From Diabrotica undecimpunctata (Eukaryota > Arthropoda > Insecta > Coleoptera > Chrysomelidae): DNA of 64,000 nucleotides. Every line of letters begins with the position of its first letter. Position 1 is the stretch's first letter. The notes under the pieces are model-generated. The model was not told the DNA's origin and made no database searches. It saw only the letters and a list, made by a program, of their open reading frames with translations. The stretch is from contig NC_092803.1 of assembly GCF_040954645.1 (NCBI RefSeq), forward strand, positions 66,808,427 to 66,872,426. Direction: 5' to 3'. The position numbers were made by a program, and so were the translations under genes. This document shows, piece after piece, positions 26,321-63,714 of this stretch.

Positions 26321-27448
26321 ATCTTTGATCATTTTATAAAATGCTTAAATAAATATTTAAAATAAATTGTTCTTTTATCCAGCTCAAATAATTTATTTTT
26401 TATTTAACGTCGGTTTCTTGATCGTTGTGTTAATTTTTGGAGGTACATTCTTTTTTCAATTTAGTTTGATAACATGTGAAACCTGCATCTAGTCTTAACA
26501 TTTTTATTACAATTTAAGTAATTTTGTATGAATAATCCTTAAATAATCATCTCCTTAACAGTAAAAAAACAAAGGTTTAATAAACTGAGGTAGATGTCTA
26601 TTCATTTTATTGAAGCATTAGGTGGCTGTAACATAATCCATCTATTTGTTTATATGCAATAAAAACTCTTAATTCTGATTACTACGATGAAAATATTTAT
26701 TTATGTTATTGGACAACCTGTAGTTTTCCAAAAATTGAAAAATCACGGTCATAATAAATTGTATACCCCGTTTTCAAACTTCAATAAATAACAAAAAAGA
26801 AATATAAAAAAGTTCATCGTAATATTAGCTATTTTCTCATTCTCATAATCGATGTTAGTTTGGCTCACATGATTTGGTTTAATTCTTATAATACAAATAA
26901 TGACAATGTGCAAAAGGTACAGCGGATCTACTGTATGTTATAATTATGAATAATAAATAATTATTTTACTTACATAGAAACTACAGCAAAGAGCAGAAAA
27001 CAAATTTTTGGAACTGACCCCATTGTTTGCAAATCTGATCTGATCTGATAAAACTAAAGCTGTTACTTTTTATTTAAACCAATATAATTTGCGCCACGAG
27101 TAGATAAGTGTTATTCATTTCTATTTCAAGTGGCAAATTTTACCTGTCGATTTATTATTTAGATTAAAGATTATACGAGTATTTTTATAAATTAATACTT
27201 CCTAGAGACAACGCATTAAGAATTAAACTTTTTTAAAAATAAAACTTTGTGGACGACCTTAAGAACCATGAAAGAAAATGTGAGTTAACACGTTAAGAAA
27301 ATAGATAAAGATAATATTCGCAAAAAACTCACTAGTAACATTGATAATGAATGTAAACACTTACTGAGATCGAGAAATTTTATGAGACTTTTGGATAATT
27401 TTTTTTTCTATAATCTAGGTATAAATAATATAAATAAGATATAAATAT
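26321..27448. other. Intergenic, very AT-rich, no gene recognised
   Basis: No open frame above 60 codons with a recognisable motif, and no clear repeat ends. Confidence 0.55.
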
Positions 27449-27592
27449 AAAAATCGGTAAGATAGTTTCGAAACAAGAACGGCTATGAATAACTATTCTG
27501 ATGAGACTTTTTACGTCGAAATACGTATCAATAGATACATAGACGCTTTGAACGTGAAATCGAATCTTTTCTGTCTTTTTCATTTCAATATA
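27449..27592 (+). repeat. Hammerhead-bearing repeat unit, copy 1
   Basis: Contains AATCGGTAAGATAGTTTCG (27451-27469), which is also the arm of the large hairpin at 28946-29093. The hammerhead and a 3' flank follow (CGCTTTGAACGTGAAATCGA through GTCTTTTTCATTT). From about 27477 to 27590 it matches 29178-29287 closely in the same orientation. Confidence 0.85.
27481..27545 (+). ncRNA. Hammerhead ribozyme (type I topology), copy 1
   Basis: A complete conserved core is present: CTGATGA at 27498-27504, stem II GAC/GTC (27505-27507 with 27515-27517), then GAA at 27518-27520. Stem III is the minimal palindrome ATACGTAT (27521-27528), with C at 27529 as the cleavage-site nucleotide (AUC, a valid NUH triplet). 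Stem I pairs CTATT (27493-27497) with AATAG (27530-27534). Copy 2 differs in stem I by a compensatory pair (A-U here, G-C there). Self-cleaving hammerheads with very short stem III are known in Penelope-like and other retroelements and may need dimers for activity. That role here is inference. Confidence 0.88.
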
Positions 27593-28394
27593 AATATAAA
27601 TTTACAAGATGGAAGAATTTAGATAGATTGGGTCCTCTAAAATGAAATGTTACAAATCCAAATCTGATGATTAAAGGAAAGTACCTAACTATTATTCTTG
27701 AGGCTTACTTAGAATCAGCAATAGAACGAATAACCAACAAAACGGTAACTACGGTAGTGGTAGCCAGAGGCACTCATTGAAAAATGCAGGATTTAAAACC
27801 AGATATGTTATATTTAATTTATAACATCACGGTAAAACCAACAATTACATACGTATCAGTTGTAAACTAGTATTCTCAGAATAAGCCGTATATTACCTGT
27901 ACATTGAACAGAGTTGGCTTACGTCTGCTGACCGCGAAACAATTAGAACACAAAACCAATATAAAAATCCTGATTTCAGATAACGAAGATAACCTACAAT
28001 GAATAGTAAAAATCTTCAAAACATCAACCAAGACATACATACTACATATATACAACGCGAACTATACGAAATTGTAATTATCGACGAAACAATCGAATTT
28101 ACAGTGCCTCACAGCTTAAATGATGCAGTCGCTACACAATAAAACTAGCTTGTGTCATCGGTTCAATATTTATTAGAAAAAAATAACATATTGAAATTAA
28201 ATTACTATATGTAAGTCTTCTAAAATCATATTATGTATGATTTTGATGTCCCAGCTAAAATGATGCAGATAAGATGAAGCATTACACAACTTATCAATAT
28301 AAAATTTGCGAAGTAGGCGTTGCATTCAATTTATATTGCAGTTATTTTTATGTTTAATAATTTAACATTTCAAAGTATTTAATTAAAGTATTTT
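27593..28394. other. Intergenic, no gene recognised
   Basis: AT-rich sequence between the first hammerhead unit and a Tc1-like remnant. No supported coding region. Confidence 0.5.
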
Positions 28395-28860
28395 AAAAGT
28401 AATGGATATAACCAGAGAGACATATCCAAAATGGTAATAAACGTTTATCAATAGTTCAGCACATTATTGAACGTTACTGAAATGAAAATGGAGTTAAAAA
28501 TAAATCAAGGTTAACTCCAAATAAGATTTTTACCGAACGTGAGGAAAGATGAATTGTCAGAGAAATAGCAAATAATCCTACAAAAAGTGCACCAGAAACT
28601 GCGAGATGAGGTAAAAAGACAGTTTGTAAAACAATGTAACCCTGAAGAAATTAAACGGATATTACGAAAGAATAACCTACATGGTTAAACTGCATGAAAT
28701 AAACCTTTTACTATCCAATGAAATAGGCGTATTAGATTGGTGTTTGCTAGGGAGCATATTAACAAAGATTTGAACTTTTGGAATTCAGTAATTTTTGCTG
28801 ATGAAACCAAAATAAACTTGTTTGAGTCCGATGAATTCTTAGTAAATCTAAACTGCTAAA
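28395..28860 (+). pseudogene. Tc1-like transposase remnant
   Basis: Broken frames encode LTPNKIFTEREER, VREIANNPTKSAPET, then RRIRLVFAREHINKDLNFWN and VIFADETKINLFESDE. These are the Tc1 blocks leading to and including the second-helix region and the first catalytic aspartate (IFADETK, usually FSDESKF). It ends soon after, so the distal D and E are missing. Stops are frequent. Confidence 0.75.
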
Positions 28861-28945
28861 CATCTTAAAAACTATCTTAAAAAATATCTAATGAATGGTT
28901 CTCTAAATTTAGTAATTTTTAAAACTTTTTTAACAAAAATAATTG

Positions 28946-29093
28946 AAAAATCGGTAAGATAGTTTCGAAACAAATTCAGATTTCTGCTTTAATCTGAACC
29001 TTCTATAAATGCAAGGTATAACAGACGTTGATAAAGAAGGTTCAGATTAAAGCAGAAATCAGAATTTGTTTCGAAACTATCTTACCGATTTTT
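28946..29093. repeat. Near-perfect 59-bp inverted repeat (hairpin) upstream of hammerhead copy 2
   Basis: Left arm 28946-29004 and right arm 29035-29093 pair with one or two mismatches across a 30-base spacer. The outer half of the arm (AATCGGTAAGATAGTTTCG) also lies directly before hammerhead copy 1 at 27451-27469, so the hairpin belongs to the same element family. Confidence 0.9.
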
Positions 29094-29096
29094 CTA

Positions 29097-29289
29097 TCAG
29101 ATGTCGCTATTGTGTCCATAACGAAGCCATTTTATTGTTGCTTCCTAAAAGACAGAGAAGATTATTTTTCACGTTGAGAACGGCTATGAATAACTGTTCT
29201 GATGAGACTTATTAAGTCGAAATACGTATCAACAGATACATAGACGCTTTGTACGTGAAATCAAATCTTTGCTGTCTTTTTCATTTTAA
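29097..29289 (+). repeat. Hammerhead-bearing repeat unit, copy 2
   Basis: Begins with a segment CAGATGTC through AAGCCATTTTATTGTTGCTTC (29098-29150) that recurs at 35660-35710. The hammerhead and its 3' flank follow, to about 29287, matching copy 1. Confidence 0.8.
29182..29246 (+). ncRNA. Hammerhead ribozyme (type I topology), copy 2
   Basis: Core CTGATGA at 29199-29205. Stem II is GACTT/AAGTC (29206-29210 with 29214-29218), longer than in copy 1. GAA lies at 29219-29221, palindromic stem III ATACGTAT at 29222-29229, and cleavage-site C at 29230. Stem I pairs CTGTT (29194-29198) with AACAG (29231-29235). Relative to copy 1, the middle base pair of stem I changed on both strands and kept pairing, which is strong evidence that the RNA fold was selected. 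All core nucleotides are intact. Confidence 0.9.
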
Positions 29290-30109
29290 AAATAATTAAA
29301 TTTATAAATAAGTTAGAATAGCGACCAATTAGGAATAAGTCTCAATGTCATGAATGCCAACTTACAATTTTCATTTCTGACAATTATATTCTCAAAAAAT
29401 AAAATTTTGTTTAAAAAATTCCTTTTTATTTAGTAATAAAAAAGAAGATTTATTCATCATTGATAGATGTCTAAAAAAATGTAACAAGTATATGGAATAT
29501 TAAATTAAAATGTGATATTTTAATGAATAAACTATAGAGAAATAATATAATTATAAATTTTGCTTAGATTTTGTTAAGAGTTGTTAGACTTAAAGCATTA
29601 TTTTCGCCTTTGGCCATTTTCAAGAGTTGGCTTCCAACGATTTTATCATTTGTTTCCCTTTGTTTCGTCTATACTGACTACTTGTAGTTGTCGATTTACA
29701 TAAAAGTATTACAAATTCAGTTTGTTTGGAATAAGTAGAACGTAAGTAGGATATTAAAGAAAACCCTCAAATTCCTGTAAAATTTATTCCGAATTTTTGA
29801 TTTCAGTGAATTTATTGCTGGTTTTAAAATTTTATAGTTGACAATTATATTATTTATGAAGTATTTATAGTGTTTGTCCTTACTGATATTTAAAAAAATG
29901 TTAAAGTAATCATTTCTATTAAAAATTTTACTATCTATCAATCTTTATCGATAAGTGAAGTGAAGTGACGTGAATACATCAACAATGTTTACATTTTTAG
30001 CTTGTAAGATAGTACCAAATTTTTCGACACGAATAAAAGAGGCTGTAGAAAAAAAACAAGGTTCTGACAAAGTATAAAAACAACTATATATTTTTGAAAC
30101 AAAAAAAGA
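29290..30109. other. Intergenic, AT-rich, no gene recognised
   Basis: No supported motif; the minus-strand frame 29717-29941 is Asn/Lys/Ile-rich low-complexity translation. Confidence 0.55.
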
Positions 30110-35656: not shown

Positions 35657-35718
35657 TTATCAGATGTCACCATAGCGTCCATATTAAAGCCATTTTATTG
35701 TTGCTTCTTTTGACGGAA
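35657..35718 (+). repeat. Fragment shared with the hammerhead unit copy 2
   Basis: CAGATGTCACCATAGCGTCC and AAGCCATTTTATTGTTGCTTC closely match 29098-29150. No hammerhead follows here. Confidence 0.65.
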
Positions 35719-35737
35719 TAGGTTTGTTTTCAGTAGT

Positions 35738-35874
35738 AATATCCCTAGGACATTGATAACAGACGAGATAATTTCATGACAATCGAAAGCTCGTTCTTTG
35801 GTACGTTACCAAGCAACGAGCTTGAGAAATTTGTCATGAAATTATGAGGCATTCATCAATGTTCGAGGGATATT
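35738..35874. repeat. Small foldback MITE (137 bp)
   Basis: AATATCCCTAGGACATTGAT at the left pairs with the right end, and inner blocks ATAATTTCATGACAA and AGCTCGTT pair with TTGTCATGAAATTAT and AACGAGCT. The whole segment folds into one long hairpin with about 65-base arms. No coding capacity. Confidence 0.75.
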
Positions 35875-36449
35875 CGGCGGATAATTTTTCGAAAAAAAAA
35901 AAAAATCATAACGAAACATTTATTTATTAAAAGTACAGTTAGTGAAAGTACAATTGTGACAAGTACAGTTGTACAAGATCGTGTTGTCATAGGGATTGAA
36001 AATTGCACTGAATGCAATGATCAGTCTAATGTTGACATGATTGGGTGAAATTGTTCCACATGACACAAAATGACGAAATTTGAATGGTTGTTAGAACAGT
36101 CGAAAAATTATCACGGTTAGAGCTTCTGTACCAGTCGCTCTAATGATTCCTTGTAGAATGAAATACGTATACGCGAATATACAGAGGCACTATACCTGAA
36201 GTGAAATCTTAACTGCCTTTTCTTTTATTTCGGTTTACTCTTTACGAGTACAAGAAATCAATTCGCCAAGGATTTTTGCTTAGATGAGGTGGAATGCAAC
36301 TTTTAGATTCTCCATATCTTTCTTACATCTTTTCGCATCGTCTGTTTTGCCTTGCAATTTATAGAAGGCACAGATAAAAGCAACAATCTGAATTTTAGTT
36401 CCGTCATTAGAAATCTTTGGATTTTTACTTTCGTGATACTCAATTTGGT
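35875..36449. other. Intergenic, no gene recognised
   Basis: AT-rich; an A-run at 35889-35903. No supported motif. Confidence 0.5.
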
Positions 36450-61200: not shown

Positions 61201-63714
61201 GCTATTATTAGGTACATCACATTCCTTTTCTTTACTTAGAACAGTTTTGATTCTCTCATTTTTTTCATATATAACTGACCCTGTGCGAACAAAACAAAAC
61301 AAAAAATTCCTGGCTTAGAATACTGTTGATATAACAATCAAAAATTGTTTCATTAATTGTATATTGTTTTGTTTTCTGTTTTGTGTGAGTAATTTATTGA
61401 ATAAAAATAATCTTTCTATATTATTATACAAAACATTTTATCTTGTATTTGAATTTTGGGACTCTTGTATTTCATTAAGGAAGTATGATATTTCCATAAT
61501 ATCACATTTATTGATACATTCATTGCATATTGTTGCTTTACAATATTTTTTGTTAGTTATTAAATAAAAATAATTTTGTGATATTATCATATCACTTAAG
61601 TTTAGTTATAGAGAATGCTATATAAAAATGATAGAGTATCATAAATACAAGATTTCTAAAAAATAAAATATCGAGTGATCTATTTAAAAAAATTAAGAAA
61701 ATCGTAATTTTGTTTTGTTGTAACACCCTGTATACAAATTTTTGTCAACGATTTTAACTAAACTTAATTTAAAAACTAAAATATATTGTTTACTTTAATA
61801 TATAAAATAAATAATTGTTGTACAGTAATGCAAAATCATTTCTATAAGAAGAAGAATTATGAGAAGAATACAAGTTTAAAAAAATATATAGGGTGTCCCA
61901 TTATAAAATTGTATTTTAGCTATACCACGTAGTTATCAATCACCCTGTAGAATTCCATATATTTTCCAAGTATGGAGATTATCATTACCTACACTTTTTC
62001 TAAATAAGTTTTTTGGATATTCTATATCATAATGAAATTATCGAGCGATGTCGCATTAAAAACTCACCCTGTATGTCTATTTAGAGCATAATTAAAAAAA
62101 AATAAACTGGCCAGAATGATATATAATATACGTTAGAAGATGACACTTAAAGAAGGAGAATTCTCATTACCTAAATGAGAATTACCCTTATGAGTGTTTC
62201 GCACTTAGCATTTAAACCAGCTTCTGGGGTGGATCAGTTTTATGTGTTGTTGGTGAGAAATAATAGTTGATTTTTTATATCTAACTTTTTAAACAAGGTT
62301 TTAACAGTTCGATTTAATTAAACGTACGCAATAGCTTTTATTAATGATTTTCTTTAAAAATCCAAGAATTTAAACTCGTCAATATAGTAACGAAATAGCC
62401 CATCTCCGATGCGTGGTACAATTCTTAGAAGGATGGATCTAGAATATTCAATCGTTGGCGTTCTCGATGCGCTTTCGACGGGAAGAATAGAGGTGGACTA
62501 CTGCAGAATATTCTAGTACATATTAATAACTTGTATATACAGGGATGAGTGCCTTAAGAACCGGCAAAATAACGCAAAAGATAGAAAACATAATACGTTG
62601 TGAAATAAAAAGAGATGAAAGTAGTAGAGGTGAGAAATGATCGATATAAACCTATAATTTACTTTACATTATATTAGAATTATTGAAAATTTCCCACCTT
62701 TAGACGTTAGCTTATGAGCTGGTTGACTTCAGTCATAGTAATACGTATCACGTAATGTAAGTAAAAACAGTTTAAGTAGGAGTATTTTTTTATCCCAAAT
62801 TAAAATATTGATCAATAATAAACTATGATTTGAGACGTCGCATACACTCTTCTCAATACAGAATTATCATAGCTTGTTATTCTGTATTTGTCAACACATA
62901 ATTAATTATCAAATTACTACTAATTAAACTGTTTATTTACATTTGCTTTATTGCCTTCAATCAAATTTAAAAAATGTTAATGTTCGACGTCATACTTGTA
63001 ATATTATGACTGAAGTCAACTATAATATTATAGCTCATAAGCTAACGTGTAAAGGTGGGAAACTATCGATAGTCCTAATATAATGTAATGTAAATTAGAG
63101 GTTTCTATCGATAATTTCCCACCTCTACTACTTTCATCTCTTTTTATTTCACAACGTATTATGTTTGCTATCTTTTGCGTTATTTTGCCGGTTCTTAAGG
63201 CACTCATCACTGTATAAGTAGCGCTGATATTAGCAAGGTTATTTGATAACATATTATCGTGCTGTAAACTTATACAACAATATATTTATATAAATTAGAA
63301 TCGCTCGTTTTATTTAAAAATGCTGCAATATAAACCATACCAATAAATAGTTGTTTTATTTATTTACGCCTTTTTTATGCATATAACACTAACAAAAATG
63401 GAAACAGTTACCTTAGTGAAACTAGTTGTACTATTTTCCCATTCTGGTGGTTGATAAGCATTGACTGCTTCATCTTGCCACTTACTGGGTGGGTTTTGTA
63501 CTGGTGGGTCATATCCAAGGTCAGCTACCAAGTAGCCGGTGTAAACGTTCAGTCCGAAAAAATCGTGGGTGCCCTTAATATATTCAACTTCTTCTTGTGT
63601 GAACGTTGGCAGACGAGATTGTGCTCGTCCTTCAGCCTTGCTACGTTCAGCAACTCTTGTCTTTACAATTTCTGGATAGTCTCCAACATAAATAGGATTG
63701 GCATATACACCTAG
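49124..63714 (-). CDS. Glycoside hydrolase family 1 beta-glucosidase (myrosinase-like), C-terminal half, four exons
   Basis: Join 63714-63412, 53511-53380, 49418-49312, 49253-49124 (minus strand), about 223 codons. GH1 enzymes hydrolyse beta-glucosides; insect members are mostly secreted gut enzymes. Visible GH1 blocks: [37 protein letters not shown] (exon 1), [17 protein letters not shown] and ILVTENG with the catalytic nucleophile Glu (exon 2, codon at 53436-53434), [15 protein letters not shown], the aglycone/glucose-binding tryptophan motif (exon 3), and KYGLYEVDF with RTARPSA (exon 4). Family length is about 490 residues, so roughly half, including the NEP acid/base motif and any signal peptide, lies beyond 64000. 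Phases are 0, 0 and 2, all consistent. No stop or frameshift, so probably functional. Substrate (plain glucoside or glucosinolate) cannot be told from this half. Confidence 0.93.
49312..49418 (-). CDS. GH1 beta-glucosidase, penultimate exon
   Basis: Acceptor TTTTTAG at 49419, donor GTAAGT from 49311. 107 bp ending in phase 2; encodes [20 protein letters not shown] through [11 protein letters not shown]. Confidence 0.93.
49553..49650 (+). repeat. Left arm of a widely spaced inverted repeat
   Basis: GGTTCGTTCGGAAAAATATT through CACTTTCATGAGATAC and TAATCAGGTTCAAG match 52886-52987 in reverse orientation. The two arms enclose about 3.2 kb of intron holding a foldback element and piggyBac and LINE scraps. 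Confidence 0.7.
49922..50517. mobile_element. Foldback element (about 0.6 kb) in the beta-glucosidase intron
   Basis: Outer arms: AAGTATTTTGGGCCTATTTT (left) pairs with the segment ending at 50516. Inner arms: ATTACGCCCAGAGAGCAATA at 50037 pairs with TTGCTCTGTGGGCGTAAT at 50266-50283, and a third, direct copy of the ATTACGCCCA motif sits at 50199. No coding capacity. Confidence 0.72.
51030..51480 (-). pseudogene. piggyBac-like element with the catalytic centre deleted
   Basis: Minus strand: an acidic N-terminus at 51480-51330 ([30 protein letters not shown]) is followed at 51190-51030 by the cysteine-rich C-terminus ([34 protein letters not shown]). The DDD core of about 350 residues is missing. 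Termini were not identified. It could be a non-autonomous deletion derivative or random decay. Confidence 0.68.
51492..51665 (-). pseudogene. LINE C-terminal scrap
   Basis: The minus strand encodes [31 protein letters not shown] and [14 protein letters not shown], the last block of the LINE family at 36450-37440. Confidence 0.75.
51666..52885. other. Intronic sequence; hairpin repeat copy at 52320-52349, no gene
   Basis: AT-rich intron of the beta-glucosidase gene. A TGGCGCACAGGACC string at about 52474 could suggest a primer-binding site but no LTR was found. Confidence 0.5.
52320..52349. repeat. Short hairpin repeat, copy 2
   Basis: GATTACAAATTAAGGGGTTA then ATTTGTGATT; nearly identical to 12639-12669. 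Confidence 0.6.
52886..52987 (-). repeat. Right arm of the widely spaced inverted repeat
   Basis: Reverse complement of 49553-49650 with moderate divergence. Confidence 0.7.
53380..53511 (-). CDS. GH1 beta-glucosidase exon with the TENG nucleophile motif
   Basis: Acceptor TTTTTATAG at 53512, donor GTAAGT from 53379. 132 bp, phase 0 at both ends. Encodes [36 protein letters not shown] and DRRIFYIR; Glu of TENG is the family's catalytic nucleophile. Confidence 0.95.
53955..54245 (-). pseudogene. LINE fragment in the long intron
   Basis: Minus strand: [20 protein letters not shown] and [10 protein letters not shown] (the KNNKSPGPD-AEILK block), then [14 protein letters not shown] (H-LISLMSH-LK). 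Frames broken. Short piece of the endonuclease-reverse transcriptase LINE family. Confidence 0.72.
54246..57069. other. Intronic sequence, no gene recognised
   Basis: AT-rich. The part 54840-55680 is less simple in composition and is followed by TTGGCGCATCTCTGAC at 55677, which could be read as an LTR plus primer-binding site, but no second LTR, TSD or pol sequence supports this. Confidence 0.5.
57070..57570 (+). pseudogene. Two adjacent LINE C-terminal fragments
   Basis: 57170-57290: [20 protein letters not shown] and DQWRKIT, the end of one LINE type. 57343-57436: [20 protein letters not shown] and [10 protein letters not shown], the C-terminal block of another. Both are broken scraps in the long intron. 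Confidence 0.7.
57840..59340 (+). pseudogene. RTE-like LINE reverse transcriptase, heavily degraded
   Basis: Frames in order: [20 protein letters not shown] with KLLKYS (57970-58040), [54 protein letters not shown] (58530-58585). The FADD box is lost, leaving [15 protein letters not shown]. The C-terminal part follows: [48 protein letters not shown] and FCRRASGK. More than ten stops or shifts. Same broad family as 8805-10377 but far older. Confidence 0.78.
59341..60028. other. Intronic sequence, no gene recognised
   Basis: AT-rich; no motif I can support. Confidence 0.5.
60029..61870 (-). mobile_element. Tc1/mariner-type element with very long terminal inverted repeats
   Basis: Left arm about 60029-60365 and right arm about 61600-61870 pair over more than 250 bp. 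Landmarks are TTTTGCATTACTGTA-like ends, AACAATATATTTTAG, TTTGTATACAGGGTG and TACGATTTTCT in both arms. The left arm has an extra block of about 75 bp. A transposase remnant lies between them on the minus strand. Arms this long are unusual for Tc1/mariner, whose TIRs are commonly tens of bases, though long-TIR subfamilies exist. Confidence 0.78.
60610..61171 (-). pseudogene. Tc1/mariner-superfamily transposase remnant inside the long-TIR element
   Basis: Minus strand: [20 protein letters not shown] with [19 protein letters not shown] (61140-61010, the DNA-binding to catalytic linker). Then [40 protein letters not shown] and [20 protein letters not shown], which holds the second catalytic Asp (LHDGVP) and the SPDL-like block, here SPEF. 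The first catalytic block is broken near 60960. Same family as 17868-18940. Confidence 0.8.
61888..62075. repeat. Possible small MITE with GGGTG/CACCC ends
   Basis: ATAGGGTGTCCCATTATAAA at 61888, ATCACCCTGTAG at 61940 and CTCACCCTGTATG at 62065 resemble the TACAGGGTG termini of the neighbouring element. Boundaries uncertain. Confidence 0.4.
62541..63212. mobile_element. Foldback MITE with about 200-bp arms in the long intron
   Basis: Left arm 62541-62745 (GGGATGAGTGCCTTAAGAAC through AGCTTATGAGCTGGTTGAC) pairs with right arm 63005-63212 read inverted (GTGATGAGTGCCTTAAGAAC). A 260-bp AT-rich centre separates them. No coding capacity. Lies within the 9.9-kb intron, about 200 bp from the exon at 63412. 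Confidence 0.82.
63412..63714 (-). CDS. GH1 beta-glucosidase, first exon visible in the window
   Basis: Acceptor TTTTTAG at 63715, donor GTAACT from 63411, 303 bp, phase 0 at both ends. Encodes [55 protein letters not shown] and [16 protein letters not shown]. Confidence 0.94.

Follow-up and report, generated by a model that had tools for sequence, protein, structure and literature searches.

Divergent arrays of a hammerhead retrozyme in Diabrotica undecimpunctata suggest integration from two start sites on one RNA

The window analysed here, a stretch of 64,000 nucleotides from Diabrotica undecimpunctata (NC_092803.1, positions 66,808,427 to 66,872,426 of the forward strand), carries two hammerhead motifs on its plus strand, A (27493–27534) and B (29194–29235). 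In A, stem I is formed by 27493–27497 and 27530–27534, the core lies at 27498–27504, stem II pairs 27505–27507 with 27515–27517, GAA occupies 27518–27520, and stem III, ATACGTAT (27521–27528), is followed by the cleavage-site C at 27529; an outer stem I helix pairs 27483–27487 with 27538–27542. The same elements in B are stem I (29194–29198/29231–29235), core (29199–29205), stem II (29206–29210/29214–29218), GAA (29219–29221), stem III (29222–29229) and the cleavage-site C (29230). A sequence-only reading of this DNA had described CTGATGA, stem II, GAA, ATACGTAT and C in order at 27498–27529 and 29199–29230, and both cores are present as claimed. Its two comparisons also held: stem I changed on both sides, from CTATT/AATAG in A to CTGTT/AACAG in B, and stem II is longer in B, with five pairs compared with three and a mismatch in A. 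Natural type I hammerheads continue stem I on the far side of an internal loop as a second, outer helix; such a helix, CTATG/CATAG, lies past an internal loop and is identical in A and B. Using a descriptor that specified CTGANGA, a stem II of at least three pairs, GAA, a closed stem III, UH and a stem I of at least four pairs, we found two motifs in the window, compared with five in total, and never more than one per window, in 200 dinucleotide-shuffled windows. The copies differ at 8 of 110 aligned bases, and simulated random substitution produced at least one compensated pair in 3.3–3.8% of trials, or in 0.6–1.0% when no pair was to be broken.

The Rfam covariance search suggested in that reading was successful in part, returning hammerhead-family matches that all remained below the curated thresholds. 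The type I model RF00163 matched B over its full length at 19.6 bits (threshold 34; E = 0.0074 in a 77-base search), RAGATH-1 matched A and B at 17.8–21.4 bits (threshold 56.3), and the type III model RF00008 matched A at 14.4 bits (threshold 48.5). RF00163 was not listed for A, where the hammerhead families were RAGATH-1 and a weak type III only. These sub-threshold matches were obtained on short stretches with permissive filters, and in a scan of the whole window no hammerhead appeared among the matches with E up to 1. Taken together, the core, the stems and the type I comparison support the assignment to type I hammerheads with a minimal palindromic stem III, with RF00163 covered full-length in B at a sub-threshold score. 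IMG/VR scans with three patterns gave 0 matches each. By RNA energy rules that omit loop–loop contacts, the hammerhead fold lies 1.7 kcal/mol (B) or 3.9 kcal/mol (A) above the best fold of the 77-nt stretch. Folding of 29140–29290 placed B at the tip of a long imperfect hairpin (29147–29280, plus strand) of −40.7 kcal/mol, with z = −4.5 against 200 shuffles. The corresponding stretch of copy A does not exceed its shuffles in stability (z = −0.22, 74 of 200 equally good), as would be expected of a copy lacking the 5′ half of the long hairpin. The RNA probably undergoes self-cleavage and circularization, and with the palindromic ATACGTAT A and B may act as dimers.

Both motifs lie within larger copies bounded by target-site duplications (TSDs). 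In describing them we use unit coordinates (U), numbered from the base right after the cleavage-site C, and two end sites, S1 and S2, which are characterized below. Copy A is preceded by ATATAAATAT at 27439–27448, an exact match extendable to 13 bases (27439–27451), and followed by its repeat at 27588–27597. It consists of a minus-strand inverted arm of 28 nt starting from S2 (27449–27476, about U260 to U233, or a U257 start if the TSD has 13 bases) and a plus arm that runs from U344 via the hammerhead to S1 at about U58 (27477–27587). Copy B lies between AAAAATAATT at 28935–28944 and its repeat at 29288–29297, and comprises a minus-strand inverted arm from S2 (28945–29037, about U261 to U169) and a plus arm from U199 via the hammerhead to S1 at about U57 (29032–29287). 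The inverted arm of A is identical to 28946–28973 of copy B, and the copies have 132 bp in common at 90%. In B, the two arms together form a long hairpin (28942–29097); a MIR403 match at this place (53.1 bits, threshold 70) and a MIR5292 match in the window were rejected, since both reflect the inverted arm folded on the plus arm. Candidate terminal inverted repeats for copy B were likewise rejected as not significant (P = 0.96). A 10-bp direct repeat arises by chance at 0.025–0.23% of window places with flanks of at least 80% A+T, and in 1.1–2.9% of random pairs with flanks of at least 24/26 A+T; because such chance matches arise, the TSD of A or B alone is modest evidence, and the genome-wide set carries the case.

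As indicated by these boundaries, A (about 27449–27587) and B (28945–29287) are separate insertions of one mobile RNA. The sequence-only reading had regarded them as terminal repeats of a retroelement, and in its strongest form this means that A and B are the pseudo-LTRs of one Penelope-like element lying between them. The copies are indeed oriented alike and 1.7 kb apart, and according to the accessible text of PMC7761336, repeats of this kind in Penelope-like elements contain minimal type I hammerheads. Each copy, however, has its own TSD, and the stem I alleles differ, the window being the only AT/GC mix among 45 multi-motif loci. The sequence between the copies matches only itself and one 26-nt stretch in the window, revealing no repeat structure of a single element, and other loci contain a stand-alone repeat of about 397 nt. 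The terminal-repeat claim therefore fails, and we find it barely tenable. Part of the intervening sequence (about 28383–28860) is transposon-like and looks like a remnant of a Tc1/mariner element; one open piece of it matched no Pfam family.

A third, old and decayed copy, C, lies on the plus strand in two parts, 35658–35732 (U262–U338, 81% identical) and 36160–36395 (U386 round to U234, 76% identical). The core just ahead of the second part is altered to CTAATGA at 36140, suggesting that its hammerhead is probably dead. The two parts are separated by a palindromic fold-back repeat (35738–35874), probably a later insertion. The window also contains three RVT_1 frames and, at about 63364–63714 on the minus strand, an exon of the GH1 family, whose fragment 63367–63714 is closest to beta-glucosidase entries of termites, in line with an insect host, and which is the sole match among the seven window ORFs scanned to a host-type gene as opposed to a transposase or reverse transcriptase family.

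The proposed whole-genome search for further copies revealed many insertions, with covariation at stem I in other copies. In the host genome of 1.74 Gb, copy B as the first probe gave 246 matches among the best 40 of 1,320 candidate places, and the whole unit without the inversion as the second probe gave 196 matches among the best 40 of 1,380; because the best-scoring candidates were sampled, young arrays dominate. The final set comprised 70 loci in addition to the window, 38 of them listed clusters of the first search (window apart) and 32 clusters of the second that were absent from the first. Array maps contain tandem units only, mostly spaced by 397–405 bp, and 48 of 72 complete units are 397 nt long, the range of 396–423 fitting tandem retrozyme units of about 150–450 bp. 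One array, L029, has unequal motif spacings of 405, 397, 423 and 423, contrary to most arrays. The unit has no protein-coding capacity, the longest stop-free stretch in one representative unit, doubled, being 57 codons. The family is best explained, judging from these properties, as a high-copy, non-coding, non-LTR animal retrozyme with a 397-nt unit, which supports the earlier placement of the ribozymes in a retroelement.

The stem I pair that distinguishes A from B is GC in 88 of 105 motifs, AT in 13, GT in 1 and unpaired in 3, and A and B are, as this pair indicates, two subfamilies with A-U and G-C, respectively. Both-side changes from TA to CG occur at two further stem I pairs, in 2 and 3 motifs, and from AT to CG at one stem II pair in 1 of 101 motifs; these figures count copies and not events. 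In 110 loosely matched copies, the core accumulated 0.77 substitutions per site compared with 1.83 in the rest of the motif, a comparison in which the motif-anchored search favours conservation. A divergent hammerhead beside one array (L032:85–166), with stem I CCGTT/AACGG and another stem II, probably belongs to a second, related retrozyme family.

The orientation of the units within the arrays is strongly biased. Among 74 arrays from the 70 loci and the window, 51 are divergent, with minus units followed by plus units, 23 are one-directional and none is convergent, so that both outer ends of each divergent array are RNA-3′-side ends. Anchored by TSDs, these ends fall into two clusters, S1 at U52–66 (mode 55, about CATTTT) and S2 at U252–264 (mode 256, about GATTTTTC). 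Both ends lie at S1 or S2 in 42 divergent arrays, of which 40 are mixed, combining one S1 end with one S2 end, and 2 are S2/S2 (binomial 4e-10); the remaining 9 of the pooled divergent arrays have one end elsewhere. S1 and S2 were first noticed in sample 1, to which copies A and B of the window belong, and the end windows (U48–68 for S1, U248–270 for S2) were set before the mapping of sample 2, obtained with the probe lacking the inversion. Because the windows were fixed after sight of the coordinate listing of the second probe, sample 2 is only partly blind; in it, 17 of 18 arrays with both ends at S1 or S2 are mixed and 1 is S2/S2. Its 20 divergent rows include two more with one end elsewhere, the truncated duplicate rows of L071 that were left out of the pooled counts. 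At this locus, three array rows follow one another every 828 bp, the first and second sharing their ends, which looks like a secondary tandem duplication of one part of an insertion. In the 23 one-directional arrays, the RNA-3′-side end lies at S1 in 17 cases, at S2 in 5 and elsewhere in 1, and the opposite ends are scattered, save two near S1.

These end sites bear on how the inverted arms arise. For the head-to-head copies of rotifer Penelope, self-priming has been suggested in the accessible text of PMC3846280, and a single cDNA that folds back and copies itself would likewise yield head-to-head inverted repeats in the retrozyme. Such a snap-back, however, predicts equal end sites on both sides, while 40 of 42 arrays have two different ones; moreover, the arms are unequal in length and the join points are spread over the unit, making self-priming very unlikely here. 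We give even less credence to a process at the DNA level, either a fold-back DNA transposon or satellite recombination, in which the hammerhead would be incidental. The TSDs and long inverted repeats would be in line with it, but the two outer ends of copy B show no inverted-repeat relationship (P = 0.96), the 105 motifs mostly preserve the pairing of the hammerhead, with some both-side changes, and S1 and S2 recur as ends in separate insertions.

TSDs of 9–16 bp flank 32 of 51 divergent arrays compared with 1 of 23 one-directional arrays (Fisher 1.8e-6), with null frequencies of 16/1500 for random pairs and 32/2548 for swapped partners. They are found in 31 of 40 mixed arrays, leaving 9 of 40 without one, and in 1 of 11 other divergent arrays. 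At L046, the array is non-mixed by the end windows yet has a TSD, and its end lies 4 nt outside the S2 window; a 22-base TA-repeat match at L034 was left out as a TSD. The median TSD length is 12 bp in the 32 divergent arrays, and altogether 33 of 74 arrays have a TSD of 9–16 bp, in agreement with the lengths above 4 bp described for retrozymes. A+T content amounts to 86% in the TSDs and 79% in the flanks. Just outside the TSD, the target has the pattern N-T-T at both ends: of 62 half-sites, 53 have T at +2 and 46 have T at +3 when TSD edges are defined by the longest exact match.

Several of these properties could also be due to a LINE protein that moves the RNA by target-primed reverse transcription of the ordinary kind, with twin priming now and then. 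LINE insertions, too, can show TSDs of around 12 bp, AT-rich target sites, inversion at the 5′ side and 5′ ends that are scattered, and in twin priming the internal second start is scattered. Three RVT_1 frames in the window and Nematostella repeats with 15-bp TSDs, read as LINE-like in the accessible part of PMC4918200, point in the same direction. Here, however, 51 of 74 arrays have inverted arms and the second start lies at a single fixed site, unlike the scattered one of twin priming, and we consider the LINE explanation unlikely.

The two arms of a locus usually appear to derive from one template. In two comparisons, arms of opposite strand resembled each other more within a locus than between loci in 24 of 27 rows and in 16 of 18 rows. 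The exceptions are the window row, L034 and L044 in the first comparison and L048 and L066 in the second; the window row pools A and B and is thus an unfair test for the window, while L034 (0.876), L048 (0.907) and L044 (0.928) have arms of unlike subfamilies, which could be due to either template switching or nested insertions. Non-major variants fixed in a locus are common to other loci in 115 cases and private in 17. Variants that differ inside a locus are private in 614 cases and shared in 190, that is, 190 of 804 recur in at least three other loci. The predominance of shared variants among the fixed ones and of private variants among the differing ones fits one homogeneous template followed by later private mutations.

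The lengths of the arms provide information about the form of this template. They vary independently from 32 to 3,870 nt, and in the mixed arrays they exceed one unit in 24 of 40 S1 arms and 23 of 40 S2 arms, with join points spread over the unit, although 2 of 40 joins (L044 and L048) carry a palindromic-match artefact. The shortest S1 arm in the 40 mixed arrays measures 80 nt, so all 40 exceed the about 55 nt to the cleavage site at which a cleaved linear monomer would end, and a circular template is the simplest explanation. Arms of more than one unit could equally have been copied from an uncut homogeneous multimer. Folded as a circle, the unit is predicted to be about 59–68% paired (35 units, one per locus). 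In the predicted circles of these units, the unpaired fraction is 97% for the six nucleotides of S1 and 21% for the eight of S2, compared with 37% overall; in the unit that was drawn, S1 is predicted to lie in the central multiloop, with S2 in a small neighbouring stem.

Considering all the data together, we think it probable that the arrays are the products of a self-cleaving retrozyme for which both nicked target strands prime reverse transcription on one RNA, at S1 and S2. A multimeric transcript would be cut by its own type I hammerheads, and the monomer would be closed by a host ligase to the RNA circle that presumably serves as template. The genome evidence supports the following steps, in which the target is nicked on both strands with a stagger of about 12 bp at an AT-rich site with NTT beyond each nick, and each nick serves as primer for the reverse transcriptase on a shared RNA template, at S1 for one strand (about U55, between CATT and TT) and at S2 for the other (about U257, between GATT and TT). 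The two cDNAs, of independent length and often extending beyond the cleavage site and over more than one unit, would then be joined by short overlaps or fillers into a divergent head-to-head tandem array with a TSD, while cDNA from one strand only would give a one-directional array, nearly always without a TSD. In the window, A and B are best explained as short products of the proposed two-strand process.

A more specific version, on which we lean neither way, is that the two dedicated start sites flank the central junction of a predicted two-armed fold and that the two reverse transcriptases of one Penelope-type dimer chase each other round one circle, starting from the two target strands, as a two-headed rolling-circle retrotransposition. 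If so, the mixed S1/S2 rule would follow, since two enzymes cannot start together at one site. In general, the arrays appear to record the re-entry of a retrozyme into the genome, from two fixed start sites, on both strands, from one template, with a stagger of about 12 bp and often over more than one turn, and they make the circular-template and two-strand models directly testable.

The element itself belongs to the known retrozymes, and its integration footprint is the new part. As described for metazoan non-LTR retrozymes in the accessible text of PMC7229834, it has a type I hammerhead with a stem III of two pairs and a tetraloop, given there for invertebrates, forms tandem units of a few hundred bp with low GC, is non-autonomous, has TSDs of more than 4 bp when present, and is predicted to form a highly self-paired circle. 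Unlike those retrozymes, the arrays here are mostly divergent and end at two fixed places. The words orientation, inverted, opposite, head-to-head and twin are absent from the main text of PMC7229834; inverted occurs in PMC7761336 in a reference title only and in PMC4918200 in an abbreviation only, where opposite refers to RNA polarity only. No report of divergent retrozyme arrays or paired start sites was found in the accessible literature. Plant LTR retrozymes, mobile and non-coding with hammerhead-made RNA circles, resemble the element and its presumed circle but differ, in the accessible text of PMC4918200, by mostly type III hammerheads located in LTRs and by 4-bp TSDs. The pDo500 repeat of Dolichopoda cave crickets resembles the present family in that it comes from an insect, contains a hammerhead and shows compensatory changes in both stem I and stem II, but it is a satellite, and the likeness is by description and not by sequence (PMC2837043, accessible part). 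A likeness by description also exists to hammerheads with a palindromic stem/loop III, an aegypti example included, for which dimer pairing is possible (PMC3088659, accessible part).

Re-entry of retrozymes by LINE or Penelope-like enzymes is put forward as a hypothesis in the accessible text of PMC7229834, and PMC8969392, as far as accessible, states that metazoan retrozymes may depend on Penelope-like elements and can be viewed as a kind of SINE. The accessible parts of PMC11167929 and PMC3846280 describe for Penelope-like elements head-to-head inverted copies, AT-rich targets, type I hammerheads, short TSDs and an optional tail at one end, all resembling the retrozyme. In rotifers, some head-to-head copies have TSDs of 8–10 bp and some have none (PMC3846280), and the anole protein in vitro cleaves and extends both strands, with internal initiation, a predicted dimer and 5′-ATT-3′ as the sequence most cut on each strand (PMC11167929). 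Unlike Penelope-like elements as described in these texts, the retrozyme unit has no long open frame, its hammerhead has an outer stem I helix and internal loop in place of the minimal form, and its start sites lie about 200 nt apart on the 397-nt unit. Read from genome sequence alone, the footprints match Penelope-type integration point by point, in the use of both strands, internal initiation, head-to-head arrangement, short TSDs and AT-rich targets. Because this footprint is shared with published Penelope behaviour, we favour, by analogy, a Penelope-like reverse transcriptase/GIY-YIG protein as the enzyme, plausibly a dimer with one subunit per strand. Conversely, the head-to-head copies of Penelope could be explained by two-site priming instead of self-priming.

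Candidate genes for such an enzyme exist in the genome. No ORF with reverse transcriptase and GIY-YIG domains lies inside the retrozyme unit; a Penelope-like ORF sits elsewhere. At least 73 GIY-YIG matches with E up to 0.001 were obtained among the best 150 of 6,687 candidates, and a 605-codon frame at L085 has the Penelope layout, with GIY-YIG over the cut-off and RVT_1 at 29.0 bits (cut-off 29.6). No sequence link from the Penelope-like ORF to the retrozyme was found, the seven GIY-YIG loci having no unit match longer than 26 nt. That 26-nt match, 92% identical to U133–158 on the opposite strand, lies upstream of the GIY-YIG frames at L079:584–609 and at its duplicate L080:632–657, and could be either a retrozyme scrap or a shared signal. 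The Penelope-like ORF of L085 (617–3609) is flanked by 520-bp inverted repeats that are 96% identical.
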